This document shows positions 11,106-42,337 of a stretch of 64,000 bases of DNA, piece by piece. The stretch spans positions 124,001 through 188,000 of the IMG/VR virus record IMGVR_UViG_3300042922_000643. One strand, 5' to 3'. The position numbers were made by a program, and so were the translations under genes. The DNA comes from a virus. The notes beneath the pieces were generated by a model that did not search any database, was not told the origin of the DNA, and saw only the letters and a program-made list of their open reading frames with translations. Numbering within the stretch: position 1 is the first letter of the stretch; each line of letters begins with the position of its first letter.

Positions 11106-14100
11106 TTATTCATTGTTCGTCCACGATTCTTCAATATAGGTGTCATTGGAGCCTGAACTTTCTGTCCGCTCTCCTGAGTTAATATAGTAGTCTACACTAC
11201 CTAAGCCTGCTTCTTCATCAAATGGATTTAGACTTTGATTATCGAAGAAGTAGTTGAGCGTCTTTCCTAACGCAGCCGTCCAATCGTCTGCTCCAGCATA
11301 CCCAGCCCCCATGTAGAACTGGTCCATTTTCCCTGGTTTACTGCCCACGACGGAACCAGCGTATCCATTAATCCCAGCGGTAAAATTACGTTGCTGATAT
11401 TTCATTGGCATGATCATAACAGCTTGACGTGCTTTTTTATTCCGAAGGAAGGCCTCAGCCCACGTTGCGGCAATATAACTTACGGCAAGCCCTGCAAGAA
11501 CATCTACAGCAATTAATGGCCCACCAACAAGGAATCCACCGACCTTGAGGAAGTTCATTGCATTCTTTCCTTCACCAAGGTTTTTCACTATGCCTTCTGA
11601 GACAGAGACTAACCCCTTACGACTCACTTTGCCAAGCTTTTTTAATCCCGTTCCTTCGATTGTGGATACTTTACCCTTCATTTTCTCAAGAACCTGACCC
11701 ATTTCCTCAATAACCTTAGCTTCGCTTCGTATAGCCCCAGGCTTTTTGACGTCATCATATTCACGAAGCAGCTCTTTGAACCGACCAAAGTCTGCATCAC
11801 CCTTCTCAGGTGAAAGCATCGAGGCAAGCCTTAACATCGCATTTCCTGTCACCGAACCTGTCCACTGTGCTGCCTTTGATACAGCTGCCGTTCCCATAAT
11901 CTTACTCATGGTTCTTGCAGCAAGGTATTTCCCTAGCACGTAAGAGGATAGGCCAATAGAGGCGGAACAGAACCAAGTTGCACGAGAAATTGTAGACATA
12001 TCGTCAACGACGACGACAGCATCAGGAGTGATCATCGTAATAAATCCTGTCTCTAAGGAGAAGCTGTGAGTCACGTCTTTTACAAGGAACGGACCATTCA
12101 TCTCATGCACAATGTCTGTCATATGACACATATCGTGTGGCTTTACTGATGGGTCACCTAGAACTGTTAGAGTTCCCTTGTACATATCCTTCACGGAGTC
12201 TCTCAGTACACTTTGAGCATAGTAATTGAGCTGCTTATCAATTGTCCAGAAGTCTGGGACCAATGGAGATGGGTCCGTCAGGTTAGTTTCAATAACCTTA
12301 GTCTTCTGTTTATCGTATCTGATATCAAAGTCTGCCTGTTGAAGCAAGCTCTGTTCTCCTGAAGCAGATCTAGCAATGATGTTTGTATAAACACCGTCTT
12401 CAGAAGCTTTTATTTTGTTGCCAATGATATCAGTGATGCTGTTATAAATATGGAACTGCTGGAATGGTTTGCGGACTTCTTTAGTAACAACCCGCTCCCA
12501 GTAGCTATCCAGTTCATTCCAGTTATACAAGCTATCATAACGATAAGCTACACGATAGTATGGTTTCCCGAAGAACAATGTTGATCTGGTTTCAAAAGGA
12601 AGCACGGCTGCAATATAGTCTGGAGATGTGTAAGCCAGTGTCTGGGCAACATCCCAAGTGCTCTGTCCATATAGCTTCATCTCAATGTCCATCTCGTCAC
12701 CACTCCACTGAGGAAGGAAGCCAAAGCCATTCCATTTTACGCCCATAGATGCACCATCTTGATACGTCCACTGGCTAAATGTATTCGCTCCATTACTGGA
12801 ATAGATATTTTGCACAGCTTCACCATATTGTGCATCCGTAATATGCCATCCGAAGATGCTTCCAATCGAAGCGTTGGTTCCTGGAGTCTTTACAGGATTA
12901 CCGAAGTGAAGAATACCTAGCGGATTATCTTTAAAGAATCTGCCGCCCGACTGGTAGTTGATTGCATCTTTGAACCAGTTCCCCTTAGAGGTCATTAACT
13001 TAGCCAGTAAATCACGAGGCTCTGTAAGCTTTTTCATGAAAGCATCGTTAGTCTCATCAGGGTCTGCGCTAATTACATTCGTAAGCTCGATACCATCACC
13101 TTGAGCAATGATCGTAATAAGATCATCAGTATCCATCTCTGTAATTGTTCCATTAAACATGACAGGAAGAGATGTTGCATCTGATCCATAACCCAAGCGC
13201 AGGTGTATACGAGCGCCTGTTTGTAGGAACATTCCATCGACTAGCTCTGTTCTTGCGTTTAGAAGCTCTTGCGTTGGTTGTCCAAAAATGAAGTTATCCC
13301 AGATACTATACTCCCAATCACCATATCGGTCTTCCATACGTCTAGAAGTCAAGTTACTATAGATGTTAGTCATCTTTACAACCGCAGTATCTGCTGCGAT
13401 GTTCCGACTCTTATGGACGTCAATGGAAGTTATAGCATTAAACCCATAGAAGTTGTCCCATAGACGATAGTTAGCCATCCATCGACCTTCATCAATAATA
13501 AACATTTGGAAGGTTGGGAACGCTCTAAGCATTCTTCCTCGTTGATCATACTCGCACATGTCCGTAAACATGTCTCTCCAAGTTTCTTGAGGTGTTTCAT
13601 TGTACTTCAAGTTGTTAATCCCCAGAGCTTTAGCTACAGTAGTATATTCTTGATACACTTGAAGGTCAGACTTTGGTGCTTGCTTTGCTGTTTCTAAAGA
13701 AAGTACTAGTGGGTTCTTATCCAAAACAAGAGGACTTTGAGAGTAAATCTTGTACATCTTCATCAGGATTTCATCACTTATTTTTTCTACCCGTTCATCT
13801 TTTACCCGCTGGTCAATAATGACACTATACTGCTGCTCGAATCGGATGATCTCCTTGATCATGGCTTCACGATCAGTACGGATGAGTGCTACAGCAGTGG
13901 AAGATACATTATTCAGATAGCTGTATACACTGTTATCCAGTTTGGCAGAAGGTGTTGCAAACTTTTTCTCCGTACTATTGTACCGACCTTCAAACCATTT
14001 TTCGATGACTGGAACATAGTACTCACTCTTGAGCTTTCTTTCCTTAAAGTTCTTTGGCTTGTTGTATGCAACGACAGCCCATTCCCATGTTCTAGAACGA

Positions 14101-17100
14101 ACTTGGATATCATCAGACTCATTCATCTTCTTGAGCTGGGCTTTAAAGATAGTTGCCATACGACGGATATTAAATTTCCAATCCCATGTTAACCGTCTCG
14201 CCTCAGACACGCTATAGGCATGGACAATCAAAGTGATCTGGCCAATACCTGCGGCAGCTTGTTTTCTCTGAGAAGAAGATTCGCCAGGATAGAGCTTGGC
14301 TGTATATCCGTTAGCTCCATGATAGAGTTGTTCCCATCCGCTTTCTTGACTAAGCAAGGACTTCAGGATGTTGGCAGCCCGTTCTCGCGTAATCATTCCT
14401 TTAGTAGCGTTCAAGTCGGAGTAAGGAATAGAACCAATAGAAATACTTGGAGCATTCTTCCATTTAGGATCACCAGAATGTTTCAGCCATAGATAAGATG
14501 CTTTCGCGTAATCATCCATGCTGGCATAGGTTAATTTTTCTTTGACCACCTTGCTTGAACTTTTTCGCTCATCGAATACAAAGCCAGCAAACAGCTCATC
14601 TATAATGGCATAAATCTCTTTATAAACTTCAAGCTTCGTTGGATTAACAAGGAACTGCTGAAGTGTTACACCACTAACTCCTGTCCAAGCATCAATTTCT
14701 GTCTGGGTTGGGAACGCAGTAACATTGCTGAAGTTCTCCATCCAGGAGTCCACAGACTGTCCTGAAGACTGTAGTGTCTTGCCAACGCCACCCCAGTTCG
14801 TTGTTGGCTCCGAGCCTTCTTCTGTCGAAAACGCAGTTCTAGCTGTTTCACTGCTGTCTTGGTTAGACATGAAAGACACTTTAGTTAGTTCAGTGCTTGC
14901 ATTACGAGCAGCCTCTGTATCTTGAGCGAGCTTATTAAACATAGCCATATTTGCATCGTCGGCATCAAAAATATTTTCGCTATCGAGCTTCGTAGTAGCT
15001 ACGAAACCAGAGTAGTCCTGTATTCTTGTCAGTCCAATCTCTGTTTCTGTTCCTGTCTCTTTTTCATACTTGTACTGTTTTAAATAGTTTCGATATGTCC
15101 ACGATGTGGAGATATAAAAGTCAGGGTCTACATATTTTGCGCCTGACGGATTGTGATAAGCGCGAATGCCCGCTTTAATATAACCGAGTGCGTTGTTTAA
15201 CTCTTGGTATGTAGGAAGTTCCAAGTCAGGATAAAGTTCAAGATCTTTCATCTTACGTTCAACAACGATAGGATCTCTACCTTCTACTGTAGAGACATGT
15301 CTCTCTTCGATCTTTGTAGAATCTGTTGCTGCAAATCCATCCAGAGTTTCTGATCTTTTTTGTGTCTTGTCAAATCCACAAAGAGTCATTTCAATCTGGA
15401 AACGGTTAGGGAATCCAGGCACAGTCCGAGTAACACAAGATTCGATCATCACGCTATTAACACCAAACAGGCGGGTCAGCTGATTCTCAAATCCAACGAA
15501 GCCTGAGGAGATTCCTAGTCTATATTTCTTAGAGTAATAATCAGACTTTTCGATAAGCTCTCGAATAGAACGGATAGCGTTACGATCATCGGTTTCCATC
15601 GTCACTTGAATATAAGGATCTTGTGATCCCATGTATTGATAAGTTGGGTGGTCCCCCATCTGAGTTGATACTTGAGCGAAGTTGTTTTCGTATGTCACAT
15701 TCATTGAAGTAATCAATACATTATCCACGTAGTAATCTTCCATGATAATAGTGCCTTCGCTTGAATTTGCTTTCTCTTGCAACTTTTGATAATTCACATT
15801 GTATGCCGTCTTCTGGAAATTTGCTTGGATCTCAGACTTATTGATCGTAACTAAATAACCCAAGTGTGTAGTATTGTTTGGGTCAAACGCATATAGATCT
15901 TGATTCTTATTATTCATAGCGACATCAGTTATAAGTAGCTTCTTTGGTATCTTAGCCCTATTGGTTTCGGCGCTTACCCGAAGAACAATCAGATCTGTAG
16001 TTCTGGATATCAATCCGAATGTACATTCCATAGGCAAGTAGAACGCATCGCTATTTGCTAAAGAGAAATTCTTTCCATAGATAGCCTCATAAACATCCTT
16101 ATTCAAAGTAGGACTGAATTTTGACGGAAAGTCTTTGCCTTTTCTGACTCTAAGAGAAGCACATCTATTCAGTTGATCAAGCGCTTGAGATACACGTTCT
16201 CCATCAATAGCCATACGGCCTAACAGGTTCTTACCATCAGCGTATTCGGTATTGAACTCGGAAGCACTGGATAGAAAGCGCAGTTCTTTGACAGAGTCCT
16301 GACGCTCAGCCAGATCGCTCTCACTTGCAATCGTAAAGTGAAAATCGTTTGTGAGTTCGCCTTCAATAGGAGCCAGATAGGATCTGTACGGATTCTTCTG
16401 ATCTCTCATTGTTTGTTGATAGTACCAACGAAACATTGGATAGTTAATTTGCTGATCAAGGAATTCTACGTGGGGCATATAAGCTTCATGATCGAACTGA
16501 GCTAGAATGAGGGTAGCCGCAATAGAATGAGGGAATCCTGGGACTGTAGCTACATTTAGGTTCACCAAAATGACATCATGAATATTCATAACTTCATTGA
16601 TGTATTCATTCTCGATAGGAAGAAAAGGCGCTTTTTTGAACTGAGCAATCAATGAACGAAGACCATCCATGTAATAGTACCCACCATCAGCCATCTTCAC
16701 AGGGTAACCGTTGATGGATTCAAGATCATGGAAATACAGCTGTAAGCTAATTGTCTGATGAGAAGATCCAGCCTTAACCATCATCGAAGACTTGGTACGG
16801 AGAGTTTTCACTTTCTCGATACTAGAGGTCGTATTCACTTGAATAGATAGCGGCGGAATAATAAACTGCACATCCCCAATACGCATATGATAAGGAGATG
16901 TCATAGATCTGCGATCATCCATACCTGAAAAGAAGTTCAGTGTATTATCCTGGATAGCTTCTGCGCCAACAACGAACTCATTTTGTTTCTGAGCTTCGGT
17001 AAGCTTAACTACAATAGGAACAACGATGCTTGTGATAGAAGGGTACAAAACGAAGTTGCCATTTTCATCAGGCAAAAGATTATTCGCACTAATCAGCGTA

Positions 17101-18335
17101 TTCTTATCGACTTCGTACCCTTTGCCAGCGAACTCTTTAACAATAGAAGATAGAGTATCTCCCTTTTTAATAATATAAGTATGAGTTGTTTTTGTTGTCA
17201 GCTCGTTGTCATAGCGCATCCGAGCAAGTTCTTCTTGAATCTTTTTTTCGGCAGCGACCTTTAGAGCTTCGTCTTCAGCCTGAATAGCCTGGACCTTATC
17301 GCTGGAGTCATAGCCTTCAACGTATTCCCAGTTAATCGTATCAAACTTTGTGTTGTTATTCTGATACTGATATGTTGCCGATGGGAAACCAAGAGGCACA
17401 TGTCTTTCTTTGCCTTGGTCATCAAAGTAAGTAAACTGCGTAGAGCTTGCAAGCAAACTTTTATTCGCATTGATGTACCATTCGCTGTCAGATAAAGCTT
17501 CGTCAGCCAGAGCATATACTGTCTTATAGACAACACCCATCCAACGGCTACCTGTTCCGTCTTTTGCGGGTGCATTATTCTTTACATCAATATCAACAAT
17601 AACTGTGCCTCCAGCAATGCTTAAGATATCGACAGTTGCTTGTTTGCCTAGCGCACCAATTTGATAGGTGGTATCCATATCGATCTTGTATTTTCTAGAG
17701 ATCTCATTATTCCGATTATCTGCATCCTCAGAAACAGAACCGTTAATGTTCTTAAGTGTCTCAGCAGTATCTACTCCTGCATAACGAATACGAATAGTTT
17801 TTCCTTCATCAAAATCATCGTATGTATTTAGGCTGTTCCCACGGCGAGATATTAAGACATCAATAGTATCTCCGTCGATAACTGTTCCTTTACCGACAAC
17901 TAACCAAGAACGGTCACCAGGGAGATGCTCCCAGACCAGGTCATATTTATTACCAAAGTAAAAAGTCTTTGTCCGTTCCTTACCGAGGTTCACGCTGTTG
18001 ATATCATACTTAGAAGGATTTAGCTCTTTCAAGATAAGATTATACGCTTGAATAGAGAGGTCAAGGCTGGAGACATTAATTCTCCCGCCCTCTGTCTCTT
18101 TAGTGTATTTCAGGTAAAAGTCTTCATCATATGTGACGCCGCTGTTCCATTTCCAGTCACTGTTCGCAGCTTCAAGCATGGCAATGACCTCAACCAAACG
18201 AGCACCTACAAAGGAAGCTACCTTATTATCTTTCCATATTGTCAATTCAGCTTTACCATCAGGAGTCAGGAAGCTCGCTTCCCAACTCTTACTATATGGA
18301 TTTCTATGTACCCGTGCTGCGTTTACTGAGATCAT
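11106..18335 (-). CDS. Giant baseplate hub protein: SNase + LysM + lytic transglycosylase + hub domain
   Basis: This 2409-aa multidomain protein has a complete staphylococcal-nuclease-type domain at about 145-300. D156 is in DGDT, R184 in IRIRY, D189, T190 and E192 in VDTAET, and R264 in GSRWMG; these correspond to SNase residues 21, 35, 40, 41, 43 and 87. A LysM domain follows at about 385-440 (YIIKKGDTLSSIVKEF). A soluble lytic transglycosylase domain lies around 1310-1440, with catalytic Glu E1331 in SLLSQESGW, then AAAGIGQITL and WAVVAYN. A gp27/gpD-like hub domain comes near 1640-1750 (ARIHLRLGYG and FNGTITEMDTDDLITIIAQ). The last 450 residues are Gly/Ala-rich and hydrophobic. It would dock on the tube end, digest glycan, and possibly act on DNA. 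It follows the giant polymerase-like gene by 14 bp. Confidence 0.8.
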   Translation of the reverse strand: MISVNAARVHRNPYSKSWEASFLTPDGKAELTIWKDNKVASFVGARLVEVIAMLEAANSDWKWNSGVTYDEDFYLKYTKETEGGRINVSSLDLSIQAYNLILKELNPSKYDINSVNLGKERTKTFYFGNKYDLVWEHLPGDRSWLVVGKGTVIDGDTIDVLISRRGNSLNTYDDFDEGKTIRIRYAGVDTAETLKNINGSVSEDADNRNNEISRKYKIDMDTTYQIGALGKQATVDILSIAGGTVIVDIDVKNNAPAKDGTGSRWMGVVYKTVYALADEALSDSEWYINANKSLLASSTQFTYFDDQGKERHVPLGFPSATYQYQNNNTKFDTINWEYVEGYDSSDKVQAIQAEDEALKVAAEKKIQEELARMRYDNELTTKTTHTYIIKKGDTLSSIVKEFAGKGYEVDKNTLISANNLLPDENGNFVLYPSITSIVVPIVVKLTEAQKQNEFVVGAEAIQDNTLNFFSGMDDRRSMTSPYHMRIGDVQFIIPPLSIQVNTTSSIEKVKTLRTKSSMMVKAGSSHQTISLQLYFHDLESINGYPVKMADGGYYYMDGLRSLIAQFKKAPFLPIENEYINEVMNIHDVILVNLNVATVPGFPHSIAATLILAQFDHEAYMPHVEFLDQQINYPMFRWYYQQTMRDQKNPYRSYLAPIEGELTNDFHFTIASESDLAERQDSVKELRFLSSASEFNTEYADGKNLLGRMAIDGERVSQALDQLNRCASLRVRKGKDFPSKFSPTLNKDVYEAIYGKNFSLANSDAFYLPMECTFGLISRTTDLIVLRVSAETNRAKIPKKLLITDVAMNNKNQDLYAFDPNNTTHLGYLVTINKSEIQANFQKTAYNVNYQKLQEKANSSEGTIIMEDYYVDNVLITSMNVTYENNFAQVSTQMGDHPTYQYMGSQDPYIQVTMETDDRNAIRSIRELIEKSDYYSKKYRLGISSGFVGFENQLTRLFGVNSVMIESCVTRTVPGFPNRFQIEMTLCGFDKTQKRSETLDGFAATDSTKIEERHVSTVEGRDPIVVERKMKDLELYPDLELPTYQELNNALGYIKAGIRAYHNPSGAKYVDPDFYISTSWTYRNYLKQYKYEKETGTETEIGLTRIQDYSGFVATTKLDSENIFDADDANMAMFNKLAQDTEAARNASTELTKVSFMSNQDSSETARTAFSTEEGSEPTTNWGGVGKTLQSSGQSVDSWMENFSNVTAFPTQTEIDAWTGVSGVTLQQFLVNPTKLEVYKEIYAIIDELFAGFVFDERKSSSKVVKEKLTYASMDDYAKASYLWLKHSGDPKWKNAPSISIGSIPYSDLNATKGMITRERAANILKSLLSQESGWEQLYHGANGYTAKLYPGESSSQRKQAAAGIGQITLIVHAYSVSEARRLTWDWKFNIRRMATIFKAQLKKMNESDDIQVRSRTWEWAVVAYNKPKNFKERKLKSEYYVPVIEKWFEGRYNSTEKKFATPSAKLDNSVYSYLNNVSSTAVALIRTDREAMIKEIIRFEQQYSVIIDQRVKDERVEKISDEILMKMYKIYSQSPLVLDKNPLVLSLETAKQAPKSDLQVYQEYTTVAKALGINNLKYNETPQETWRDMFTDMCEYDQRGRMLRAFPTFQMFIIDEGRWMANYRLWDNFYGFNAITSIDVHKSRNIAADTAVVKMTNIYSNLTSRRMEDRYGDWEYSIWDNFIFGQPTQELLNARTELVDGMFLQTGARIHLRLGYGSDATSLPVMFNGTITEMDTDDLITIIAQGDGIELTNVISADPDETNDAFMKKLTEPRDLLAKLMTSKGNWFKDAINYQSGGRFFKDNPLGILHFGNPVKTPGTNASIGSIFGWHITDAQYGEAVQNIYSSNGANTFSQWTYQDGASMGVKWNGFGFLPQWSGDEMDIEMKLYGQSTWDVAQTLAYTSPDYIAAVLPFETRSTLFFGKPYYRVAYRYDSLYNWNELDSYWERVVTKEVRKPFQQFHIYNSITDIIGNKIKASEDGVYTNIIARSASGEQSLLQQADFDIRYDKQKTKVIETNLTDPSPLVPDFWTIDKQLNYYAQSVLRDSVKDMYKGTLTVLGDPSVKPHDMCHMTDIVHEMNGPFLVKDVTHSFSLETGFITMITPDAVVVVDDMSTISRATWFCSASIGLSSYVLGKYLAARTMSKIMGTAAVSKAAQWTGSVTGNAMLRLASMLSPEKGDADFGRFKELLREYDDVKKPGAIRSEAKVIEEMGQVLEKMKGKVSTIEGTGLKKLGKVSRKGLVSVSEGIVKNLGEGKNAMNFLKVGGFLVGGPLIAVDVLAGLAVSYIAATWAEAFLRNKKARQAVMIMPMKYQQRNFTAGINGYAGSVVGSKPGKMDQFYMGAGYAGADDWTAALGKTLNYFFDNQSLNPFDEEAGLGSVDYYINSGERTESSGSNDTYIEESWTNNE

Positions 18336-18349
18336 CCGCTCTACTCCTC

Positions 18350-21300
18350 CTATGAGATGATACGACCTCCGCTAATCGCTTGGGATACAATCCCTTGTAG
18401 CCATTGCTGATCTAGGTTCGTCGTATTATCTTGTACATTCATATTCATGTTTAACTGCATTGGCATCATAGCGTTAAGTTCTCCATGCACCAGTGCAGCG
18501 ATTTGTTGTTCACTCATCGTGGAGGCCTGCTTGCTGTTAATCGAGATATTAATGTGTTCTCCATCCTCGTTCGGTGTAACTCGTGCAGTAGGAGATTTAT
18601 CAAGCATTCCCATCGCAGAACCGCGAGGCATAGACTCTTCAATAACTCCATCCTTACCTCGAACTGTTTCTTCAGGAGTAGGACCACCTCTAGTGATTGC
18701 ACTAGCAGCCCAAAGCCCTCCGAAGACTAAACCAGCAGCTCTGATTGTGCCAAACCCTGCCGAACCTCCACCGCCAAAGCCTGCGGCAAATCTGTCAGCT
18801 AACTCCCGTACTTTTTCCCCAGAATTTTTAGCGGTAGTAGCTCCGCCTAGTAGTTCCTCGCTAAGAGGTGTTGCCTGAGATTCACGAAGTAGACTACCCA
18901 TATTTGGCTCTTCCAAGTTAGATGCTAAAGCCTTACTAGAGTATGATAAGGGTTTTTCTAGTGATTCCGCAATACGAGGATCAAAATTAATTAAATGTTG
19001 CATACCAGGTGTTTCTAAAATTGAAGTTCCTTTGCCTCGCAGCATGTTACTCAAGTCTTCTGGGGATTTGATCCCTTCAGAAACGAATAGTTTATCGGAT
19101 ACGTCATTGAAGAGTCCGCGGCTTCTTCCTGTATACTGCCCTGTCTTTTGCAGGCTATCAAGCATGTGTTCAAATTCAAATGGTTGAGCGTCAGTTGGAG
19201 TGAAGCCAGCGCCTGAAGCAGTATCGAAAATTCCAAGCACGGAGTTTGCTTTACGGATACGCTCAATACCATCACCATCAGGACGATTGATACCGCCTTT
19301 CAGGTCTTCTAAGGCAGCATCCCGTTGGATGAGGTTTGTTCGTGCATATTCCTGAGCAGCTTCAAGTGTTGCGCCTTCGTTATTCGCAATATAGCTCTGT
19401 ACGAAGTCCTCTATCTTGAATTTTTTGGAAGAGATTGCTTTCTGGGAAACGGCTCGACCAAAGTCATCCAAGTGACTTCTCATTGTTGATAGTTCAGCAG
19501 AGCGCTCTTCGGTTAGCATTCCGCCAGACTTGAGTGTCTCTTTAACCCCGTAAATCAAACTCGAAAGCTTATAACGAGTATTATCGAGGACCCCTACATC
19601 CGCTTTACCTAAACGTGCGATAGCTGTTTCAGCATCTTGAAGCGGACCGACTTTAGGTGCCCATTGCTCGTGGAATTCTTTACGGAACTCTGCACTTCTC
19701 CACAGCTCTTGAACTGTTACCCCTTGGGCCGATGCCTTGCTCTCGATATCTGAGCGAACTTCTTTAGCGACAGCTTCAAATTCTGGCAACGATCCTTGAT
19801 GGATTTTAGCCATAGCTTGATGAACTTCTGCGCCCTCTTGGTATTTATAATGAGCAAGCACATTAGAGATAAAGTCACCATCATAGTCGGCATTTAGAGA
19901 AGTTGCTGTACCAACAGTGAATAGTCCTGTTCGTGCGTTCGCTTTTGTCAGTTCGTTTGAGACCTCAACCTTAAGTACAGCGTTCGTACTTTCATGGATC
20001 GTTGGATAACGGTTTACAAATCCATATAAACCCTTCTCTTTGATTTCCGCAAGTGCTGCTTCGCGCATGAACATATTCTTCGGGATACGATCACTTGTCT
20101 TAAGATTCTTATTGGCTTCTTTCCATTCTGTAGAAAGTACATTATGTCTCTCTGCATTAGTAGCTCTTAGAACCTTGTCTTCAGCGCCATCGATCATTTC
20201 CAGCATCCGCTGTTCGCTAACGTACAGGGAACCTTCTTTAAAGTTTCCACTCGCTAGAGGATTCACAGTCTGAGCACGAAACCGACCTGACATGTCCTGC
20301 TGAGATGTTAAGAGCTTCTTCGCGATACTACCTTTAGATGAAGTGATCTCATATCGAACCTGCTCATCATAATTACTAATTGCATTACGAAGGGCTGTCT
20401 CTGTTTCAGGTGTCTGAGCTGCCTGATACTCTTTCGATTTTGATGCAATCTTAATTTGCGCTTTCTGAAGATCAGTAAGTACTGCCATACTCTCATCGGC
20501 ATTAATAGGCACACTAGCGATATGAGAATCAAAGAAACGAACATATTTTCTACCGAAGTTGTCCCCTGGCAATTCGAAGAGCGCTGTTCCACCATTTTGA
20601 CGGATAGCGTCACTCATCTTTTTACCAGTTGCTTTGCCGTTCTCAAAGAGTTCGACATGCTCTCCGCCCATTTGAATTACGGTATTACTATAATCTCCAA
20701 CAGTCCGCGTTTGTCCTTTGTAACCTGACTGTGGAGGGTCAGTGAAAGTGTGTGCGGATATTTCAGTGATACCGTTATTAATACGGCCTGCACGGATACC
20801 GTCTCTATCATTGATATGGAAAGAATCACCACGTGTACGAATAACAACTTCGCCCTCACGCAAGATCCCCTTTTGCTGAAGGTCAGTATCTGTTAAGTCT
20901 AAGGAAGCACTAATGAGATTACGAGCATATCCATCGATGTCTCTGTTCTGCGCACGAGCAGCTGCACTTACATGTTTATTTACCCATGAAGAGACAGCAT
21001 TCCCTTCGCCTAAGAAACGGTCTGCGCGATCACTGATTGCTCCTGTTTCTTTAATCCCCCAGCTAACAAGACCATCAATGCTTTCAACTTTTTTCATCCG
21101 TCCCGTACGAGGATCAAAACGTCCCTCGAAGGTAGCGCCCATTGAGTTTTCCCAGTTATAGACATCTGCGTTACCAAATGATTCCTGTCCATATTCAATG
21201 GTATTCTTGAGGAAGCCACCAGCACCAATCCATTTGTTCTCTTCTTTGTCAAACTCAGAAAGGAAGTTTTGGACACTCTGAAGATTGAATGAGCCCTGGG

Positions 21301-24300
21301 CATTTGCACCCAGATTAGAGTTCATAATCAACTGACCTTTAGAAAGCTTAACATCTCCCTCACTAAGACCGAAATGTTGTGTCATAAACCCACGGATTGC
21401 ACCCATCGCATTATCCATAGCTTCGACTCTTTTAACGTCTCCAACAGTAAATTGTTTATCGATTTGCTTTTGCGCTTCATCAATAACGAGTCGAACTTTT
21501 GAGTTCACAAATGATCCGTACTGTTCCTTCGAGAACTTCGCTTTTGGAAGAACGACATCCGCTTCAATGCCTAGCGCGTTAAGGATTTCATCAGAAGCAA
21601 CACGAGCCGTAACACGGTGACCAGCCTCAGAGATGATCTTTACACCATCAGACATGGATTGAAGCTCTTCGAAGATTAAGGAGTTGTTTGTAGTATCCAG
21701 ACCTTTAAAGATTGCTTTTTCACTACGTCCATTATAACGATATGATTCTCTAACCTTATCATCCTTCATTAAAGCTCCAACAGTGATATGCCCCTTTGTT
21801 GGGCTTCCGATACGATTGTCACGATCTAACAGAGACATGATATCGCGCTCAGATTCAGTTAGAGTTTCTTTAACACGGATAATACCATCTTCGCCTATCT
21901 CAGTACCGAGCATGTCCATCAATCTACGATCAATATTTGCACCTTCAGCCATACGTATACGGCTTTCGCGAGAAGTAACAAGCCCTTTGGCATAGCTTTC
22001 ACGAACAAGAACCATACCATCATAAGTTGTCATCATCGGATTGGACTTGCCCATCGTTTTTTCCATCATACCTTTAAGCTGGGAATCGTCGATATAGGCT
22101 GTCCGAGTACTCAGATATGCAAGTTCTTGGTCGTATATATTCTTACCAACATCTGTTACTAGTCCAGGAGTCAGATATCTACTGATCTGGTCAGCACTCT
22201 TTCCTCCACGACTTAGACCATCAACTACACGATTCCGATCAAGTGGAAGATAGTTGACAGACTTTTGGATATTTTCCTGCGTCATGGAGTTCCAGAAACC
22301 AAAAGGTGTGTCTTGTCTAGCATCGACACCAACCGCAGAAAGAATATTGTTGGCGGCTAAGGTATCCTTAACGTTCTGGAAATTGATATGGAGATTCAGT
22401 TTGCTTGCATAGGTAGGCGCTTCTTGATCGAACTTTCGACGTTCCTTCATGTTTAAAGAGTCGAGGAATGATCCTTTGAATTTGCTGGAGGCTTCATACT
22501 CTTTCTTTTTAAGAGCTTCACTACCATATTGATCTGCATACCAGCTTTTAGCAAGACCTGCTACATCAATCTGACCTGTGCGCAATCGTTTTGCACGGAG
22601 TGATTTACGAGCCTCTTCCTTCGTTAAACCATCTTCACTCATATATTTATTGTTCATAGAGAGAGATCCTATAGTTTGACGAACAATATTATTTCCCCAA
22701 GATTCACTTTCAGGTGCGCGACCTTGAAGTACAAGGTCTTTAATTTTCTTCGAGGAGCGAATCAGTTGCTGGCTCACAACATCGACACCAGAACCTAGCA
22801 TAAGCTTGCCGCGGTTGCGTCCCGTGCTCATCTCCATGGTCATAAGACGAGCAGATCTTTCCTGCCCAGGAACGAATACGTTGTTTTTCTCATTCAGAAG
22901 GGGCACCTTGATTGCGGCGACTTTACTGTGTTCAATAATCTCGTTTCCTTTAAGGCTGAAGATCTCTGCGGCTTGCTTTTTATTAGTCAGCGCCATTACT
23001 AGACCTTTATGCTTTTCATCATAAACAAATCCAACGGCAACGTCGTCAGAGGAGAATGCTCTTGCAAGATCCGTAAGTGTTTCAGAGATGCCTTGGCTTA
23101 CCAATGAAGAGTTTTTAGCTCCCGTGGATTCGAGTATATTATTGAATACCTTGTCATGAGTCTGGATCATCTGGTTAAAGATACTGTCTGTAGGATTGAT
23201 CAGGCCCTGACCTTGCCAGGAATTCGAGCGGAATGGAACGGCAGGAAGGATTGCGCGTTGATGAATCGATGCACGCTTACCGCCGTACCCACTACGAATT
23301 TTTTGAGCACGCAAAGGGTTCACATTAAAAGGATCTTCAACGGTCATAGTACTCATACCCATACCGTTGAGTCCTTTAGCTTGTTCATAGGTATGTTCTT
23401 GATGAATACGACCTGCAATTTCAGTGTAAAGTGTACCTAAAGAGTCATGGTCATCTAGGCGATCAATCAATCGGTACATTTCTTTAGCCGCTGAACCTGT
23501 AAGTCCTGAGCGACCTTTCGTACGTAGCTCATCGATCATTGTTTTGAGACGCTTTTTCGTAATACGCATCGATGGCTTGCCCATATCATAGCCGCTACCT
23601 ACAACACGTTTGATCCCCGACTCAACACTAGCAGGATCTTTTAATGAAATGTTATGTATTTCCCCATCCATCTTAATAGGGATTACTTTTTGGCTATCTG
23701 GAAGCTGAACTTCCATTGTGTTTCCACCAAATTCAGCGTCAATGATCTTACGATAGTTTTTCAGAGCTACGCCTTGGGCATATTTAGCACTAGAGCTGTC
23801 ACCTTGAAGCGGAGATTTCTCCAATTCAGAGATAAAGTCAAGGATATGATCCTTTTCCCCTGCTACACGCTTCTTCAAAAGCTGGTAGTCTCGAACAAAT
23901 TCAGGTTTTGCTTCTTGGAAGACGCCCTTATTGTCCATGTATCCAAGTGCTTTTCGGACTTCCTCTGGGGATTTGCCAGCTGCTTCAGCTTCAACCCCGC
24001 CAATCATTCGTTTAATCTGTGTAACGCCGCCTTCAGGACTGAATAAACGGTCCCAACGACGACGAGCGCGGTCAGCCATAGTGTTTCCTTGCAGTGTTTT
24101 ACGCTCAATTTCAGATAGATGATCCATAGGAATGAAATGCTGCCCAAAAACAGAACGCAATTCATCTTCGCTTTCTCTAAAAATCATGTGATAAAGGTCT
24201 TCGCCATCAGGAGTTTGGTTGCGAAGTACAGCTCCAAAGTGGCTTTTCCCATCAATCTGGAAATCTTTAACTGTTTTTTCTAATGTATAAGCTGTATTTT

Positions 24301-25618
24301 TATAAATTGGGTTCGGTTTAATATTTTCATACACAGGAACAAGCTGACCTTTTTCGTCTCGCTTATAAACCATATCAAATTTACCATTACGTGATGCTTC
24401 AAACGAAGACATGCCACTAACCGAGAATAAGGAGTCGCCCATTTTAAAAGGAGTTCTATCCCACGAAGCACTGAGAGGACCTTTCACTCCAATACCATTC
24501 GGACCAATCAGATTCTGAGAAGAAACCAGCTTGTTAAAAATGTCCGCGGAAGTGTTCAAGTCATCAATCGCTGTATGCGCAACACCCTTAGAGATACCAA
24601 GCATGTCTGCAACCTGCTCTTGTTTCAGGTTCTTACCAAATATACTAGCTTGATTGCGGAAAAACGTTCTAAAGATCTGAAGATTATCCACTACTCGACC
24701 TGAACCGAAGCTGTTTACTAACGCTGTTAGCTCTTTCTGTTGCTTAGGACTAGTAACTAGCGGGTTTAGATGGTTCATTAAATAGTCTTTCATCATTGGA
24801 ATATCGTAAGCATCAATGTTTGCGCCACCAATAATCGCATTCTTTCGCCCACCAATAACTCGTGCAAGCTCACTTACAACTTGTTCTGGTGAACTGCCGT
24901 AAGATAAGTTAGTACGACCTTTATGCATCCGCTTTACTTGGTCAGGAGTAAAGATAAATCCTGTAGGAGCCTGCTTGTCTCGAAGCTGTCTATTAAGATA
25001 GGTAGCGCCGTTTTTACCTTTACTGAAATAACCATTGCCAAATGGATCATCATCCCCATAGAGGATAAGGTCATTCAACGTACGGCGTTCATCTTTTGAC
25101 AATGAGCTTGTGGCATAACCATTACTCGCTACTTTCTGAAGCAGAGAATCAATATGAGCAAAGACATTGTCTGTAGGCCGAACAAGAAGAGATACCTCTT
25201 TGGACTTTGGCATTCTTTCAAAGGTATAATTGCTGGAAACTTTCCGCTGTCCAATCGCTATTTCTGTTGGGGAATACCAAGGGAGGCTATCGCTACCTTT
25301 GCCTCCGAAAGTACCCAGGTTTTCTATGTCCATCATAAATACATTGTCTCCAGGTCTTACGGATAACAAATTTTCGATGGTCTTTTGCGGACTCGAACCA
25401 AACCAATTGCCAGGGCTTACGCTACGGTAGATACCAAGCTCTTCAGCGGGAGCCCCAAGCATACCTTGTGCATTTCGGGCATAAATCTCCCCAAGCGGTT
25501 CGCTTCTTTTAAAAGATCCGCTTCGAATGCTAGACCAGACCAGGCGAGAATTCTCGCCCGATCCTATGTATGTATAATTCAGTTTAGCTTTCTTCGCTGC
25601 GTCTTCGTAACTAGCCAT
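18350..25618 (-). CDS. Giant virion protein with DEDDh exonuclease-like and RNA polymerase beta-prime-like catalytic barrel (candidate virion RNAP)
   Basis: This is a 2422-aa protein. Residues about 85-365 carry DEDDh exonuclease motifs: D97 and E99 in FMMDIEN, D272 in NIDAYDIP, H348 and D353 in HTAIDD. The key region is about 1755-1925, which matches cellular RNA polymerase beta-prime. QDMSGR (R1779) corresponds to VDYSGR, VNRYPTIHE (R1870) to LNRAPTLHR, and NADYDGD (N1909, D1911, D1913, D1915) to NADFDGD. The gap from R1870 to D1911 is 41 residues, against 35 in E. coli (R425 to D460). A beta-subunit-like region may lie upstream around 1195-1370, but this is tentative. The gene sits among giant tail genes, so the protein is probably packaged in the virion and ejected. 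Known parallels are crAss-like phage virion RNAPs and SP-beta YonO. Activity is inferred. The tail position also allows a role as tape measure. Confidence 0.82.
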   Translation of the reverse strand: MASYEDAAKKAKLNYTYIGSGENSRLVWSSIRSGSFKRSEPLGEIYARNAQGMLGAPAEELGIYRSVSPGNWFGSSPQKTIENLLSVRPGDNVFMMDIENLGTFGGKGSDSLPWYSPTEIAIGQRKVSSNYTFERMPKSKEVSLLVRPTDNVFAHIDSLLQKVASNGYATSSLSKDERRTLNDLILYGDDDPFGNGYFSKGKNGATYLNRQLRDKQAPTGFIFTPDQVKRMHKGRTNLSYGSSPEQVVSELARVIGGRKNAIIGGANIDAYDIPMMKDYLMNHLNPLVTSPKQQKELTALVNSFGSGRVVDNLQIFRTFFRNQASIFGKNLKQEQVADMLGISKGVAHTAIDDLNTSADIFNKLVSSQNLIGPNGIGVKGPLSASWDRTPFKMGDSLFSVSGMSSFEASRNGKFDMVYKRDEKGQLVPVYENIKPNPIYKNTAYTLEKTVKDFQIDGKSHFGAVLRNQTPDGEDLYHMIFRESEDELRSVFGQHFIPMDHLSEIERKTLQGNTMADRARRRWDRLFSPEGGVTQIKRMIGGVEAEAAGKSPEEVRKALGYMDNKGVFQEAKPEFVRDYQLLKKRVAGEKDHILDFISELEKSPLQGDSSSAKYAQGVALKNYRKIIDAEFGGNTMEVQLPDSQKVIPIKMDGEIHNISLKDPASVESGIKRVVGSGYDMGKPSMRITKKRLKTMIDELRTKGRSGLTGSAAKEMYRLIDRLDDHDSLGTLYTEIAGRIHQEHTYEQAKGLNGMGMSTMTVEDPFNVNPLRAQKIRSGYGGKRASIHQRAILPAVPFRSNSWQGQGLINPTDSIFNQMIQTHDKVFNNILESTGAKNSSLVSQGISETLTDLARAFSSDDVAVGFVYDEKHKGLVMALTNKKQAAEIFSLKGNEIIEHSKVAAIKVPLLNEKNNVFVPGQERSARLMTMEMSTGRNRGKLMLGSGVDVVSQQLIRSSKKIKDLVLQGRAPESESWGNNIVRQTIGSLSMNNKYMSEDGLTKEEARKSLRAKRLRTGQIDVAGLAKSWYADQYGSEALKKKEYEASSKFKGSFLDSLNMKERRKFDQEAPTYASKLNLHINFQNVKDTLAANNILSAVGVDARQDTPFGFWNSMTQENIQKSVNYLPLDRNRVVDGLSRGGKSADQISRYLTPGLVTDVGKNIYDQELAYLSTRTAYIDDSQLKGMMEKTMGKSNPMMTTYDGMVLVRESYAKGLVTSRESRIRMAEGANIDRRLMDMLGTEIGEDGIIRVKETLTESERDIMSLLDRDNRIGSPTKGHITVGALMKDDKVRESYRYNGRSEKAIFKGLDTTNNSLIFEELQSMSDGVKIISEAGHRVTARVASDEILNALGIEADVVLPKAKFSKEQYGSFVNSKVRLVIDEAQKQIDKQFTVGDVKRVEAMDNAMGAIRGFMTQHFGLSEGDVKLSKGQLIMNSNLGANAQGSFNLQSVQNFLSEFDKEENKWIGAGGFLKNTIEYGQESFGNADVYNWENSMGATFEGRFDPRTGRMKKVESIDGLVSWGIKETGAISDRADRFLGEGNAVSSWVNKHVSAAARAQNRDIDGYARNLISASLDLTDTDLQQKGILREGEVVIRTRGDSFHINDRDGIRAGRINNGITEISAHTFTDPPQSGYKGQTRTVGDYSNTVIQMGGEHVELFENGKATGKKMSDAIRQNGGTALFELPGDNFGRKYVRFFDSHIASVPINADESMAVLTDLQKAQIKIASKSKEYQAAQTPETETALRNAISNYDEQVRYEITSSKGSIAKKLLTSQQDMSGRFRAQTVNPLASGNFKEGSLYVSEQRMLEMIDGAEDKVLRATNAERHNVLSTEWKEANKNLKTSDRIPKNMFMREAALAEIKEKGLYGFVNRYPTIHESTNAVLKVEVSNELTKANARTGLFTVGTATSLNADYDGDFISNVLAHYKYQEGAEVHQAMAKIHQGSLPEFEAVAKEVRSDIESKASAQGVTVQELWRSAEFRKEFHEQWAPKVGPLQDAETAIARLGKADVGVLDNTRYKLSSLIYGVKETLKSGGMLTEERSAELSTMRSHLDDFGRAVSQKAISSKKFKIEDFVQSYIANNEGATLEAAQEYARTNLIQRDAALEDLKGGINRPDGDGIERIRKANSVLGIFDTASGAGFTPTDAQPFEFEHMLDSLQKTGQYTGRSRGLFNDVSDKLFVSEGIKSPEDLSNMLRGKGTSILETPGMQHLINFDPRIAESLEKPLSYSSKALASNLEEPNMGSLLRESQATPLSEELLGGATTAKNSGEKVRELADRFAAGFGGGGSAGFGTIRAAGLVFGGLWAASAITRGGPTPEETVRGKDGVIEESMPRGSAMGMLDKSPTARVTPNEDGEHINISINSKQASTMSEQQIAALVHGELNAMMPMQLNMNMNVQDNTTNLDQQWLQGIVSQAISGGRIIS

Positions 25619-25632
25619 CGCTACATTCCCCT

Positions 25633-28600
25633 TTATCCAAATATTGAACCCATGTTATTGTTAAACTCCGAGACGATTTCATCTCTACGGTCTTTGATAA
25701 AGTCCATTGCAAGACTTATCTTATTCTCACCCTGTAAAGGTGAAGTCGTCATACTCACCTGCGCATCCTTAAGCCCTGCGCCTTGAAGAATCTTTTCGAT
25801 TCTAGTGATATCAATCGACATGCTAGGGCGGAATGGTTCAATTCGATTAACCCCAGAAGAGTCTGCATTCTTTACATCATCCTGCCACATTCCAAACTCT
25901 GTCAGTTCTAGACCTTCGTTTCGAACGACTTTAAGTTTGATATCGTCAAGATTGACATTGGCATCCCAGCCCTCCCACTTTGCATTAGGGAGATAGTGAT
26001 CCTTAAAGTACGAGTTTAAGCTCTCAGGCTCGTCTGTGTCCATACCCCATTTTGCTTGGTAGAACCGACGCTGATTCTTAGGAACCAACCGAAGAATTTC
26101 TTCTCTTTCTTTCGGAGCCGCAGTCATAAATTGAGTAAAGAATTCACGGTCCTTACTAGGAAGAGCTCGGAAGATCTTTGTCATGTCTCCATTCGGATCT
26201 GCCCCGTATAGTGTGGACTCATACTGCTCTTTATATTGCAGAGCTTGCATCGTCTTCGAACCGATACGGTAAGAACCGCGGTCTTGATCGATCATCTTGA
26301 GTCGGCTACGAACATTATCTAACTGTTCCTCGACTACGTCCTCGTCAACATAACCTATCTTCTTCGCCATGGAAAGCCATTTTTTCGAAGCATCCAGATA
26401 ATTACGAAGTTTTTTATTCTTTTGACCGCGGTCACCGCTGTCTCCGACAAGTTGATCGACGTCGATCCCCTCTTCGTCCTTAGCTCGCTCAGCAGCTCTC
26501 TCGTAGAGACCTTTATACTTCATGTATTTCAGAACATCGAAATACTCATTAATAGCACGTTCTTTTTCTCTTCGCTTAGGAATCCAGGCGTAGTCATCTC
26601 CACCAGGAGAACGACGACCTACAAATTCGTCGATGCTACGTGCAGCCGCGAGTCCACCAAAGACAGCAGCTCCAACCCACTTACCATAATACTTACCTGC
26701 GCCCTTCTTACCAAAGAGCCATCCAATACCATAGCCTTGTGCTGCACCAACCAGAGGATTCTGAGAGGCTGCGGTTTCCAACATCGGCTGAATCCATCCA
26801 CCCCAAGGATCTGTCCAAGGTCTCCAAGCTTTACCATAGACTTCATTCTTCTTGTACATTTCAAGTGGTGAACGAACCTGCATAAACTTGTCTGCAATTA
26901 CCCCAACGATTGGGATCTTCGGAATAGCATCATGAGTCATCCATTCCATCATGCGGCCTACGGTGACCTGCGTCTTGTCATACATAGCGATAGTGCCTAC
27001 ACCCGTATTTTCACCTGAAGCATTTACGCCGTCTTTCTTATCAAACTTACGAGCCAGCATTGCATTAACGGATTGCCCTTTGGTACTCATATAGAAAGGA
27101 TTGTGGTCATTGCCGTTACTATATACAACAGCGTGCATCGTGTTCATCGTATCGTCACGGACTCTATTGATTGGGTCAGCGTCTACACCAATCGTAATTT
27201 TAGCGCCCTCGTAGATATACTGCTGGAGCCATTCTTTCGCCTTCTCTGCATCCGCTTTTACCTTAACACCTGCAAGACGAATTGGATTGTTTGGATGTTC
27301 CGCAGTTAAGAAAGTATTCGCATCAAGAACCTTAGTAACAGTCACTTTCTGGTTATCGACTTCTGCATTGCGGAATTTGTTTGGATAGAAGTGGTATTTA
27401 TCTTTCTTAGCAGCCACTTGATCACGGACTTCTGCGTATTCATCTTCCATGCCCGTAGTCAGTGCGCCTGCTTCTTTCATCTGAGAAACCATTCGACGCC
27501 AGTATTTATATTCATCAGAGTAAGGTGCAACGTCAGCCAGGATCTTGAATCGATCAAATGCACCATAGTCTCCAAAGGTGTCAGGATGGAGCTTGTTAAG
27601 GCTCTCATACGCAGCGCCAGGAAGTCTCATTTCACCCTTAGCAACTTTAGTATATGGGTCTCCATGTTGGAAATCGATGAAGTAGTTAACGCCTGGCAAC
27701 CAATCAGGCATCTTATTTTGCAGAGGATTGTAATACTGTTTACGTGGATCTTTTGCTAGATAACGACGAGCAATTTCTGAGAACTCGCCGCCGAAGAATC
27801 CATCGGCACCGCCCATTTCCATATCCCAGAAGGAACGGCCATAACTCATCATACGGCTGGAGCGGTCTAACTTCTGACTCCGAATATTCGTATCTATTCC
27901 CATTGCCATATTTGCAGAGAAACCATAGATACCCGCTTGTTCTGTAAGGCCGTACCACATGTCTCCAAGGACCTGTGAGCCGCTGTACGGGCTTCCAATG
28001 TCCTTAAGGTCTGCTACAAAGTCTGGGTCACGAAGCGACTCCAGGCTGCTCATAGGGCGTGCTGGGAGCAACATACCGCCACCAGGTCCTACACCAGCAC
28101 CAGCGCCTGTTCCTCCAGCACCAGCAGCAACTATACCTGCGTTGATAGATCCGAGATTGTCCATAGCCAAAGCACCTGTAGTATAAGCGCCTGAGCTACT
28201 AGGACCACTTTTCCCATACCGAGTTAGCTGCGGAAGAGAAGGAGCATCTAATGAAGAAAGACCTTCACCAAAACCACCTCCGAAGGAGGAAGACTCAGAT
28301 AGCAGGTTGTATCCACCCGCAGGCATGAACTGAATAACGCCTTCACCTGTCGCGCTATCATACTGAGAAGTAATGTAATCATTAACTTCTTTCTGGTACT
28401 CACGGTGAGCCTTCGACAGGTCTTTGTTTTCACGATATGGATTGAGTAGACCACCAACTGTTCGATTTAGAGCAGGCCCAATAAGCGGGATCATTCCCAG
28501 CTCTTGAATGCCTCCACTAATTGGATAAGGGCGATCTTCAGCATGCTTTTTCTCATAGTGATCTGGATCAGTCAAGAAGTGCTTAATTGGAGCAAACGGA

Positions 28601-31600
28601 TGAGTAAGAGTAGGCATCCAACTATTAGCCCAGTACTCACTCTCACTACCGTACATTGTGTCTGTGAACTTATAATCAGACTTCATGCGGCGATACCAGT
28701 TAGGCTGGAAGCGGTCTATCTTTCCGCCTTCCCAAGGGGTTGTTGAGCCTATTCCCCACCAGCGGCCTTTGCGGACAGCGTCTTCTCCGCTTTCATAGTA
28801 ATGACGAAGTTCATCCTCACTACGAGTGTCCCCAAAGAATCCAAATGATCCATACTTAACAGCAGCACCAATAGGTGTTTTCCATAGCTGATCTAAGCCA
28901 GGTATCAATTCTGCGAACTCTTTACCGATCTGATTAATGCCAGTAAACTGTTTAAACCATGCAGTATCCAAAGACATGTTCGCATATGTATCCGCGGCTT
29001 TGTCACTGACTCTATCACCAGTCATACCGTCCAGGTGTTGCAACTGCTGAAGAGCAACATATGGAAGAACAATTCGCCGTCCAAACTGGTTGGTTATGAT
29101 ACTCTGCATCGATCCTCTATTTTTTTGAGAGAGACCAAGACCGATCTTCGCCAGGGAGTTGTCCAGACGTTCTGCAAAGTAGTACGGAATCATAGATGCC
29201 ATAGTAAAGTCTTGAATATTTTTGCGGCCTGCAAATGGTTGACCTAGAACCTTCATAGCAGAACTTGTTGATGCTTTTAGAGGACTTACTCCGTCTGTAA
29301 TTTGACGATTAATGTCTTCAAGCATCCAGTTCTTACCTCGGCCTTTATTCATGACGAGGTTACCGACTAAACCAAAAGGCTGTGGAGGTTGATCGCCAGG
29401 GCCCATGGACCATATTGGTGTGTAGTTTGTTACGGTATTAGAAAGAACTTCTCTGAAATCATCACGACGTATTAGATCGCCCTTAAAAGCTTCTAATGCT
29501 TCAGTCTTAGCTTGCGGACCTAAACGATAAACATCGTCCCAGTAGCGGTGTAACTCGTTAAGGACAGACAAATCCCCAACTTCTCTTGCTGCTTTCTCAG
29601 GAAGATTACCGTTCTTGATTCCTTCGCGAACGAGATCTGCTACAGAAACCTGAGCAGTTTGCTCGATCTGTTCAATAGCGTGCTGATGGATTAAGCGTTT
29701 AACATCGTCAATTCTATTTACTATATTAGTTTCGTGTACGTCTAAAGGCTGTAGAGGTCCCATGAGGTAAGGAGCATTGTCAGAGACAATACGCTTACCC
29801 TTTAGAAATTCCCCTTGGTTGTTGTGGTACTTCTCCCAAGTCTCGCTGACCTGACTGCCTACTTTACGCATGGCAATCCGACCATTCTTTTCACTCATAC
29901 CCGCACGAATACGGCCTAGAGACCCCATAATATCATCAGGCCCAAATAAGTTTCCTAGATCGATATTCGACTCTCCGTACGCTTGCTTCGCATAACTATT
30001 TAAGAAGTTTGCAGTATCATCGGACAAGGGCTTTGCTCTGGAGTTAATTTCTGCGTAGATATCCTTGTAAGAAGATTCTAAATCTTTGATCGTTGCATCA
30101 TCTTTAAAAATTGTTTTGTAGCGGTTACGCATCCAGTTTGGATCATCAAACTTGGTGAATGTGCTTAATGCTCGACTAAGAATAGTTTCAGACTCTTGTC
30201 CGCCGATATCAAATAATCGTTTAATGAATCCGCGATTAGCTCCAGCGCCCGTATGTAAGTTTGCAATGGAAGACATTGCTCTTGGAATAGCACCGAATCT
30301 AGCAGAGGCCAGCGTTACATTATCCTTAACAATTTCACCACTAACCAAATCCATAACTTTATTATTAGAGTACAGATAGTCTCGGCTCAGTACACCTACG
30401 GCAGCGTCTTGATTATGAGCCCGTGGATGTCTTAAGGTTTCGGCCACCCCATGTAAAGAAGGCTGGATAGTTCCTCGTTGCATCAAGTATGTTTTTGGAG
30501 CTTCTTTCATTGCTTCGTATGTGGTCCAGTGTGCAAGATCCAATGGGTTAAATCTCAGGAAAGGGACTTGGAAGTTTTGTTGAACGAACGAAGCAGACTT
30601 ATATAGACCTTCATGGAGACTTCTAGTATCTACGATATGTCCCGCATCATTAATGAATATACGGTGGTCTGCAACAAGATCAAGGAATCTGCTGTCTTTA
30701 TTGGCCATTGCAGCGATTTTATTACCTATACGGCCATTGACAGCCTCACCATTAATACGGCGGCGAATGACAGAGTCATTATCAAAGAGCTTATTGACCC
30801 ATTTTCCTGATTCATTCTTCTCTAGTAAATCTTTATTTACAACGGGACGGTATCCTGCACCACCCATCATTTTCGTAAGGAATGTTTCTTTCTTTTGATG
30901 GCGAGAAACAAAGTCATCAATGAGCTTGTTTTTCAGATTAACACTGCCCTGTACAGGAACACCATCAATAGATCCAGGCCGTTTTGCACCTCGAAGAACA
31001 CGACGGTCTAGTCGTCTAGCATCTGCTCTTTTTTGGAGAGTAGTGAACATTCCCTCAACAAATTCTTTACGAGCTGTCTCATCAGGAAGTTCTATCGAGA
31101 ATGCATTGTTATTCTTAACTTTATTTTCAGGACTGTATCTCTTCAACATATTCTCAATTCGTTCTACTCCAGGGTTCAGGAAGAAGTCCGAATCTTGAGC
31201 GTGAAGGTCATTAAGAATTTCACCAAGTCCTCTTTCAAAATGCTGAGGGAATTTGGTCTTGAGATCATTCATTGCCAACGTCTTTTGAGTAGAACGAATA
31301 TAACTTCGGCCTGTCGAAGAGAGATCAGTAATCAGCTGGCTATAATCTGTTTCAATATTAGTAGGCATACCGCCTAGTATACTTTGTTGTCTACGTATAG
31401 CTGTTTCGGTACTTCGAGATAAAGAGGATTCTAATCGCTGATTAAACCTCTCTGGGTTTAAAAAATGAGATACAGGGGAGCGTCGGTCTAAAGCATGATC
31501 AAGTGCTTTGATACCTGACATTGCATCCCCGATGAGGCCACCTATCTTAGGGGCCTGGTGAAGGTATGAAGCCGTTCTAAGAGCTGCACCCCCAACGATA

Positions 31601-32270: not shown

Positions 32271-32289
32271 GGTTTCTCCTCCTAAATAA

Positions 32290-32317
32290 AGAGAGGCCCT
32301 CATAAGAAGGCCTCTCT
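32290..32317 (-). terminator. Intergenic hairpin between the two tail chaperone genes
   Basis: A perfect 9-bp stem (32290-32298 with 32309-32317, AGAGAGGCC type) encloses a 10-base loop. On the minus strand it is followed by TTTATTT. It lies between the stop of the first chaperone gene and the ribosome site of the second, so it could attenuate expression of the second chaperone and the giant genes below. Confidence 0.6.
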
Positions 32318-32327
32318 GGGATATGTA

Positions 32328-42309: not shown

Positions 42310-42337
42310 TAGTATGAGTCCTCCTTCATATTTATAT

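Follow-up and report, generated by a model that had tools for sequence, protein, structure and literature searches.

A giant tail-cluster protein of a contractile-tailed phage carries an RNA-polymerase-type catalytic barrel and an exonuclease domain and is a candidate virion RNA polymerase

What is the role of a single chain of 2422 amino acids that is encoded among the tail genes of a phage and carries motifs of the catalytic barrel of cellular RNA polymerases? The original prediction was that this protein is an RNA polymerase (RNAP) packaged in the virion and ejected into the cell, where it starts early transcription. We analysed the window, a stretch of 64,000 nucleotides that corresponds to positions 124001-188000 of a 251,543-bp virus record; the gene occurs once in the whole record. 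The gene and its landmarks are the following.

18350..25618, minus strand: giant protein of 2422 aa with an exonuclease, a predicted two-barrel-type polymerase and a conserved C-terminal segment; a single open frame with an ATG start and with full-length homologues of similar length in phage KLEB27-3 and in IMG/VR contigs
25633..31758, minus strand: tape-measure-like neighbour of 2041 aa, similar to orf145 of phage 0305phi8-36; a syntenic landmark with homologues in KLEB27-3, MTATph1, ME3 and 120 IMG/VR stretches
11106..18335, minus strand: baseplate hub of 2409 aa, similar to 0305phi8-36 orf147, carrying LysM and possibly a nuclease motif; a syntenic landmark (phrog_20474, E = 1.5e-225, and homologues)
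31764..32816, minus strand: two adjacent paralogous ORFs, a probable two-gene tail chaperonin
34877-36484 and 37125-38675, minus strand: contractile tail sheath genes (phrog_16991 and phrog_279, tail sheath)

These genes belong to a minus-strand array of terminase, portal, major capsid, two sheath genes, tail-tube-like genes, the chaperonin-like pair, the 2041-aa and 2422-aa genes, the 2409-aa hub and baseplate genes. With this gene content the phage is contractile-tailed. The giant protein is encoded in the structural cluster, as a virion RNAP would be, since the array also contains sheath, portal and capsid genes, and its description as a tail-cluster protein of a contractile-tailed phage holds. 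The depositors of the Acinetobacter phage ME3 record labelled its homologue of the hub as a relative of the 0305phi8-36 baseplate hub. Both ORFs of the probable chaperonin match phrog_29362; they are arranged as described for 0305phi8-36 (PMC2147016), and their equivalents in Cytobacillus are annotated as 'tail chaperonin'. AAGGAGG is frequent upstream of the genes, and the nearest described phage has a Bacillus host.

Several other features of the region were observed. Stretches resembling staphylococcal nuclease can be seen by eye in the hub (11106-18335, for example DGDTIDVL) and in the 2041-aa neighbour (25633-31758), and a nuclease domain has been reported for the hub of BtI1 (PMC2147016). 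The major capsid gene and the gene next to it are overlapped by near-full-length antisense frames of 366 and 430 aa (41206-42309 / 41212-42312 and 42377-43681 / 42383-43675), which are probably an effect of codon usage. Positions 57967-58758 of the window encode an anti-repressor (Ant-like) protein, and this suggests a temperate or carrier-state history.

The evidence for a polymerase is strongest around the motifs of the beta-prime-type double-psi barrel (DPBB-A), which occupy the following positions.

19844..20299, minus strand: DPBB-A, residues about 1774-1925
20282..20284, minus strand: R1779 of the SGRF motif, variable in the wider family
20003..20011, minus strand: RxP motif, R1870-Y-P1872
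19874..19888, minus strand: metal-binding DxDxD triad, D1911-Y-D1913-G-D1915

All three motifs of the original prediction are present, with QDMSGR starting at residue 1774 (R1779), VNRYPTIHE at 1868 (R1870) and NADYDGD at 1909 (D1911, D1913 and D1915). The spacing from the Arg to the first Asp is 41 residues as claimed, and in RpoC of E. coli D460 is the first Asp, in agreement with the 35 given for that enzyme. To assess the conservation of the barrel we aligned the region around DxDxD in the 2422-aa protein and 18 diverse relatives. Exactly five columns are invariant in all 19 sequences, namely R1870, P1872, D1911, D1913 and D1915. R1779 is thus present in the giant protein as stated, but it does not belong to the invariant core, because other members carry Gln or Tyr in its place.

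A search of all PDB sequences with the 19-sequence profile returned RNAP largest subunits for all of the best 60 matches listed (best E = 7e-4), including those of Pol V, Pol II, bacterial beta-prime and the phage RNAPs of phiKZ and AR9, and the printed alignments fall on RxPT...DFDGD. The signal emerged only with this diverse local profile of the barrel region. With the whole 2422-aa protein as query, phmmer found no match in the PDB; a full-length profile of four sequences gave no meaningful match, and the matches of the polymerase part to Pfam and PHROGs were below threshold. The Pfam family RNA_pol_Rpb1_2 is matched weakly by all four of the nearest members, with a best E of 0.004.

AlphaFold2 prediction of residues 1738-1985 from the 19-sequence alignment gave a model with a pLDDT of 81.3 and a pTM of 0.77, and a Foldseek search of the PDB with this model produced 585 matches at E<=1e-3 (best E = 3.6e-8), the best 50 listed being without exception beta-prime chains. 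The TM-scores normalised to the query are about 0.4, probably lowered by long flanking helices of the model that do not superpose; we therefore assign the beta-prime fold on the E-values and the uniformity of the matches. Could the motifs be chance matches in an ordinary tail protein? A loose pattern, RxP[TS]...DxDGD, does arise in 15 of 20,000 shuffles of the 2422-aa protein, but the strict pattern NRxPT-(20..70)-NADxDGD arises in none of 20,000, and with the invariance across 19 sequences and the profile and fold matches added, the probability of chance is negligible and we rule it out. A beta-prime-type barrel with an intact metal-binding triad is thus confirmed at the level of alignment, profile and predicted fold, and on these grounds we are nearly certain that the protein contains a catalytic barrel of the RNAP type. 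The strengths that we attach to the barrel, the complete polymerase, the virion location and early transcription are judgements and were not computed.

A polymerase of this type would need a second, beta-type barrel (DPBB-B) from which two basic residues point to the active site, and there is one candidate for it.

21419..21706, minus strand: candidate DPBB-B, residues about 1305-1400, with KxxxxxGx[KR] at K1327-R1335, spaced as K1065-K1073 of E. coli beta

In the family the Lys and the Gly of this pattern are each kept in eight of nine members and the basic residue in nine of nine. The same pattern is found twice elsewhere in the 2422-aa protein, and since K-x5-G-x-K/R is common by chance, K1327 and R1335 mark a candidate only. 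Conserved blocks at residues 1996-2072 were tested as bridge helix and trigger loop. When the presumed DPBB-B and bridge-helix blocks were compared by hhalign with RpoB, RpoC and the RNAPs of phi14:2, crAss001 and P23-45, no significant match was obtained, and an AlphaFold2 model of residues 930-2110 built from seven sequences is of low confidence (pLDDT 45); we count both results against the reading as a complete polymerase. The predicted fold bears out the first barrel, in the 1738-1985 model, and leaves the second barrel, the bridge helix and the trigger loop as putative. We predict that the 2422-aa protein is very probably a complete polymerase. A genome-wide Pfam search found no other two-barrel or T7-type RNAP, but the absence of a T7-type enzyme carries little weight because the T7-type control itself matched nowhere.

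Upstream of the polymerase part lies a domain that the original prediction had overlooked, as it had the conserved C-terminal segment, the fixed gene slot with its correspondence to the orf146 position of 0305phi8-36, and the breadth of the family.

24524..25351, minus strand: DEDDh (DnaQ-type) 3'-5' exonuclease domain, residues about 90-365, with D97, E99, D272, H348 and D353

The N-terminal domain is matched by phrog_192, 'DNA polymerase exonuclease subunit' (E = 4.6e-9), and the same family matches the relative L010 (E = 9.9e-8). The complete catalytic set D-x-E ... D ... H-x(4)-D is invariant in all nine members compared. A search of the PDB with the exonuclease profile gave weak matches (best E = 0.03) to DnaQ-like exonucleases and to the exonuclease domains of T4 and delta DNA polymerases. 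Judged from its residues, the DEDDh domain is intact and precedes the polymerase part. The exonuclease profile did not match the shorter proteins of 1400-1600 aa that occupy the same genomic slot (ME3, L091, L093, L146 and L148).

The combination of the two domains raises the question of whether the protein could instead be a virion-carried DNA polymerase of two-barrel type with a proofreading exonuclease, used in priming or repair of the incoming DNA. The exonuclease of the archaeal DNA polymerase PolD (DP1) belongs to a different fold, which speaks against this comparison, as do the presence of a DNA polymerase III alpha subunit in the phage genome (G000:247022-247789) and the profile and fold matches of the barrel, which are to RNAP largest subunits. 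The name of the matched phrog would fit such an enzyme, and so would the precedent of PolD, in which a two-barrel core of RNAP type is combined with a proofreading exonuclease (PMC4996933). On balance we regard a DNA polymerase as very improbable, and the RNAP reading is retained below.

The distribution of the protein was followed through its barrel and through its neighbours. Gp034 of Bacillus phage KLEB27-3 is the only detectable homologue in a phage record (31% identity over 97% of the length) and is annotated as 'structural protein'. A scan with the barrel region recovered relatives from IMG/VR, and scans with the conserved neighbours recovered many more in the same slot. Scans of viral and genome sequences with full-length patterns found nothing, and a scan of genome contigs with the DPBB found none. 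Full-length members with both exonuclease and barrel include L006, L010, L099, L100, L102, L015, L104 and a circular 240-kb Cytobacillus record. More divergent slot proteins keep RxP...DxDxD with the variants DNDSD, DFDGD, DSDGD, DMDGD, DKDAD and DIDAD. The barrel profile also matches two slot proteins outside the alignment, L080:12877-17727 (E = 2.1e-5) and L090:12265-17898 (E = 2.8e-7), so the family is larger than the 19 aligned members. Gp036 of phage ME3 reads SREP...DHDQD, and its hhalign score alone is not significant; a Foldseek search of viral models independently gave an ME3 protein at rank 32 (E = 4.7e-5). ME3 thus has a probable divergent relative. The gene occupies the slot between the tape-measure-like and hub genes wherever both neighbours were seen, and this slot is kept in very diverged phages. 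The same protein is shared by many contractile-tailed phages that are only distantly related to one another, a distribution suggesting that an entire lineage may import its own transcription enzyme.

One group and one single sequence were tried and set aside. The c1 group comprises 67 ORFs of about 1600 aa (L022-L088, from IMG/VR contigs mostly without known hosts), located downstream of the tape-measure-like gene in the same slot and often split into two adjacent or overlapping ORFs. Its near-invariant GGFDLDDK...RQPTGPEE has the motifs in reverse order and its profile has no RNAP match, and we rejected it as an RNAP. L011 was excluded as an unrelated true beta-prime subunit that had been caught by the motif; its ORF (L011:8276-12358) stops shortly past NADYDGD, and the next ORF may be an endonuclease or an intein or intron insertion at the catalytic loop. 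Two further observations concern the relatives. In KLEB27-3 the counterpart of the 2041-aa gene is divided into two structural-protein genes (gp031-gp033, L001:7641-14797); the small ORF that separates them, gp032, may represent an intron or a homing element. Large circular Bacillaceae records, labelled 'plasmid', also carry members, namely L109 (NZ_CP065512, 240 kb) of Cytobacillus and NZ_AP024502 (220 kb) of Bacillus velezensis, which suggests phage-plasmids or carried phage genomes.

The most conserved part of the giant protein is its C-terminal end.

18353..18751, minus strand: C-terminal segment, residues about 2290-2422, with a hydrophobic helix, a Pro-rich linker and a conserved stretch at the very end; a possible anchor to the tail tip or hub

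Conservation per 100 residues is highest in the last 130 or so residues (0.55-0.58). Hhalign places the slot groups c1 and c11, which are otherwise unalignable, on the C-terminal segment only, and between 0305phi8-36 orf146 and its counterpart in BtI1/BwK1 the last 60 residues are likewise the only ones that can be aligned (PMC2147016). The segment is also kept in Moorella phage MTATph1 (CDS0031). In that phage (L004:10486-17866) the exonuclease and C-terminal parts flank an IS21-like transposase/ATPase pair, and the middle, including the DPBB, is missing; relatives carry intact copies of the gene. From this pattern of conservation our reading is that the C-terminal end may dock to the tail tip or hub and that the remainder may be payload, perhaps also with a tail-measuring function.

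The loss of the barrel region in MTATph1 counts against our preferred explanation and would fit a tape measure or pilot protein in which the domains resembling RNAP and exonuclease survive as inactive structural relics. In favour of such a protein is also 0305phi8-36 orf146, which lies in the same slot and was called a tape measure chiefly because it correlates with tail length (PMC2147016). Relics, however, are expected to lose their catalytic residues, and here the five barrel columns and the five exonuclease residues stay invariant while almost everything else changes; we therefore disfavour a purely structural role and regard it as improbable. As to measuring the tail, the enzyme domains fill much of the 2422-aa chain, and the 2041-aa protein encoded next to it could be the tape instead.

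An active polymerase could also be made late and act inside the cell, encoded beside the tail genes by chance or for co-expression. Two-barrel phage RNAPs that are not virion proteins do exist, as in P23-45 gp64 (PMC10770324) and the YonO-like enzymes (PMC7824862). Against such an enzyme are the retention of the tape-measure-like/hub slot across very diverged phages, a C-terminal segment more conserved than the enzyme part, and the annotation of the KLEB27-3 homologue as structural, and we consider it unlikely. The slot, the C-terminus and the KLEB27-3 annotation point instead to a protein that is probably present in virions.

Indirect support for early transcription comes from the promoters. 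We compared the number of sigma-A-type promoters (at least 10/12 positions) with expectation and found no excess genome-wide, with 75 observed and 87 expected. The control, the first 20 kb of SPO1, where its host-takeover genes lie, has 17 observed and 7 expected. A sigma-70 region 2 protein (228-aa frame) is encoded elsewhere in the phage genome (G000:218393-218608), and such a sigma-like factor could also account for the lack of excess. A de novo search for phage promoter motifs returned weak, uninterpretable motifs only. That the 2422-aa protein drives early transcription seems to us somewhat probable.

The joint explanation that we find likely as a whole is that of a single-chain, two-barrel-type, DNA-dependent RNAP with an N-terminal DEDDh 3'-5' exonuclease, which is built into the tail, delivered into the host and transcribes the first phage genes. 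In this model the conserved C-terminal segment would fix the protein in the tape-measure/hub zone of the tail, the protein would enter the host together with the DNA or before it, and the virion enzyme would transcribe the first genes before phage factors redirect the host RNAP, which the phage sigma would then do. We infer the second barrel with the full polymerase, the presence in virions, the injection and the early transcription. The part of the exonuclease is speculative; it might trim misincorporated or stalled RNA 3' ends, or host or phage DNA, at the injection site.

In cellular RNAPs proofreading is carried out by the polymerase active site itself, and no dedicated exonuclease domain serves this purpose. 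A bolder and rather doubtful proposal is that the exonuclease and the two-barrel RNAP act on the same product strand, which would make this a proofreading, virion-carried RNAP, anchored at the tail tip as the DNA enters the cell, in an ancient lineage of contractile-tailed giant phages. Our literature search found neither a virion RNAP with an exonuclease domain nor an RNAP in the tail cluster of these phages, and in the literature searched the fused exonuclease has no precedent among RNA polymerases; most subscription journals and preprints lay outside this search, and an earlier description elsewhere is possible.

Virion RNAPs with two barrels have been described from crAss-like podoviruses, from phiKZ-like phages and from a single Thermus phage. 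If our explanation is true, a large and deeply diverged set of phages with contractile tails, whose single-chain enzyme is encoded in the tape-measure/hub slot, forms a further, separate lineage of virion RNAPs, and the start of transcription in such phages is explained. A long-standing guess, that transcription starts at the tail tip as the DNA enters, would become testable, and several proteins at present classed as hypothetical, as structural or as tape measures would need reannotation.

The tail of the Thermus phage P23-45 is long and non-contractile, whereas the tail here is contractile. P23-45 nevertheless provides a precedent in gp96, whose chain joins a virion RNAP to the tape measure protein (PMC10770324), and the two proteins share a single chain, a beta-prime-type DxDxD barrel, the position as a giant protein of the tail cluster and a proposed transcription during DNA entry. 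In gp96 the RNAP forms the N-terminal part of a tape measure of 5002 residues, whereas here the triad is at residue 1911 of 2422 and the exonuclease precedes the polymerase; the sequence similarity between the two is not significant. The phages with which the slot is shared, 0305phi8-36 and BtI1/BwK1, have their gene between orf145 and the hub orf147 and conserve the C-terminal 60 or so residues, and the BtI1/BwK1 gene is similar in length to orf146 (PMC2147016). That protein, compared here by description, was assigned as a tape measure only, mainly from its length, and a polymerase or exonuclease was not reported (PMC2147016). The phiKZ/AR9-type RNAPs (PMC7824862; PDB 7ogp and 7s01) have the beta-prime DPBB, and their chains are among the top profile matches; they consist of several subunits, in contrast to the one chain here, and the genome has no match to PF00562 that would indicate a separate beta subunit. 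In the YonO/QDE-1 group (PF05183) both barrels are in one chain, but its members are not tail-cluster proteins, and the genome has no match to this family.

The crAss-like phages are podoviruses, and their virion RNAP has DFDID or DFDVD in place of the DYDGD found here; we know of no exonuclease domain described for it. It is likewise a giant single-chain two-barrel RNAP among virion proteins (phi14:2, PDB 6VR4; gp77 in KC821624), and hhalign sets the DPBB-A of the 2422-aa protein on the DxDxD region of the phi14:2 enzyme, with a weak E of 0.008. The phi14:2 RNAP was detected in virions by mass spectrometry, whereas the 2422-aa protein is a putative virion protein. The 2422-aa protein thus resembles the virion RNAPs of P23-45 and the crAss-like phages and is set apart from them by tail type, exonuclease, position of the barrel and sequence.
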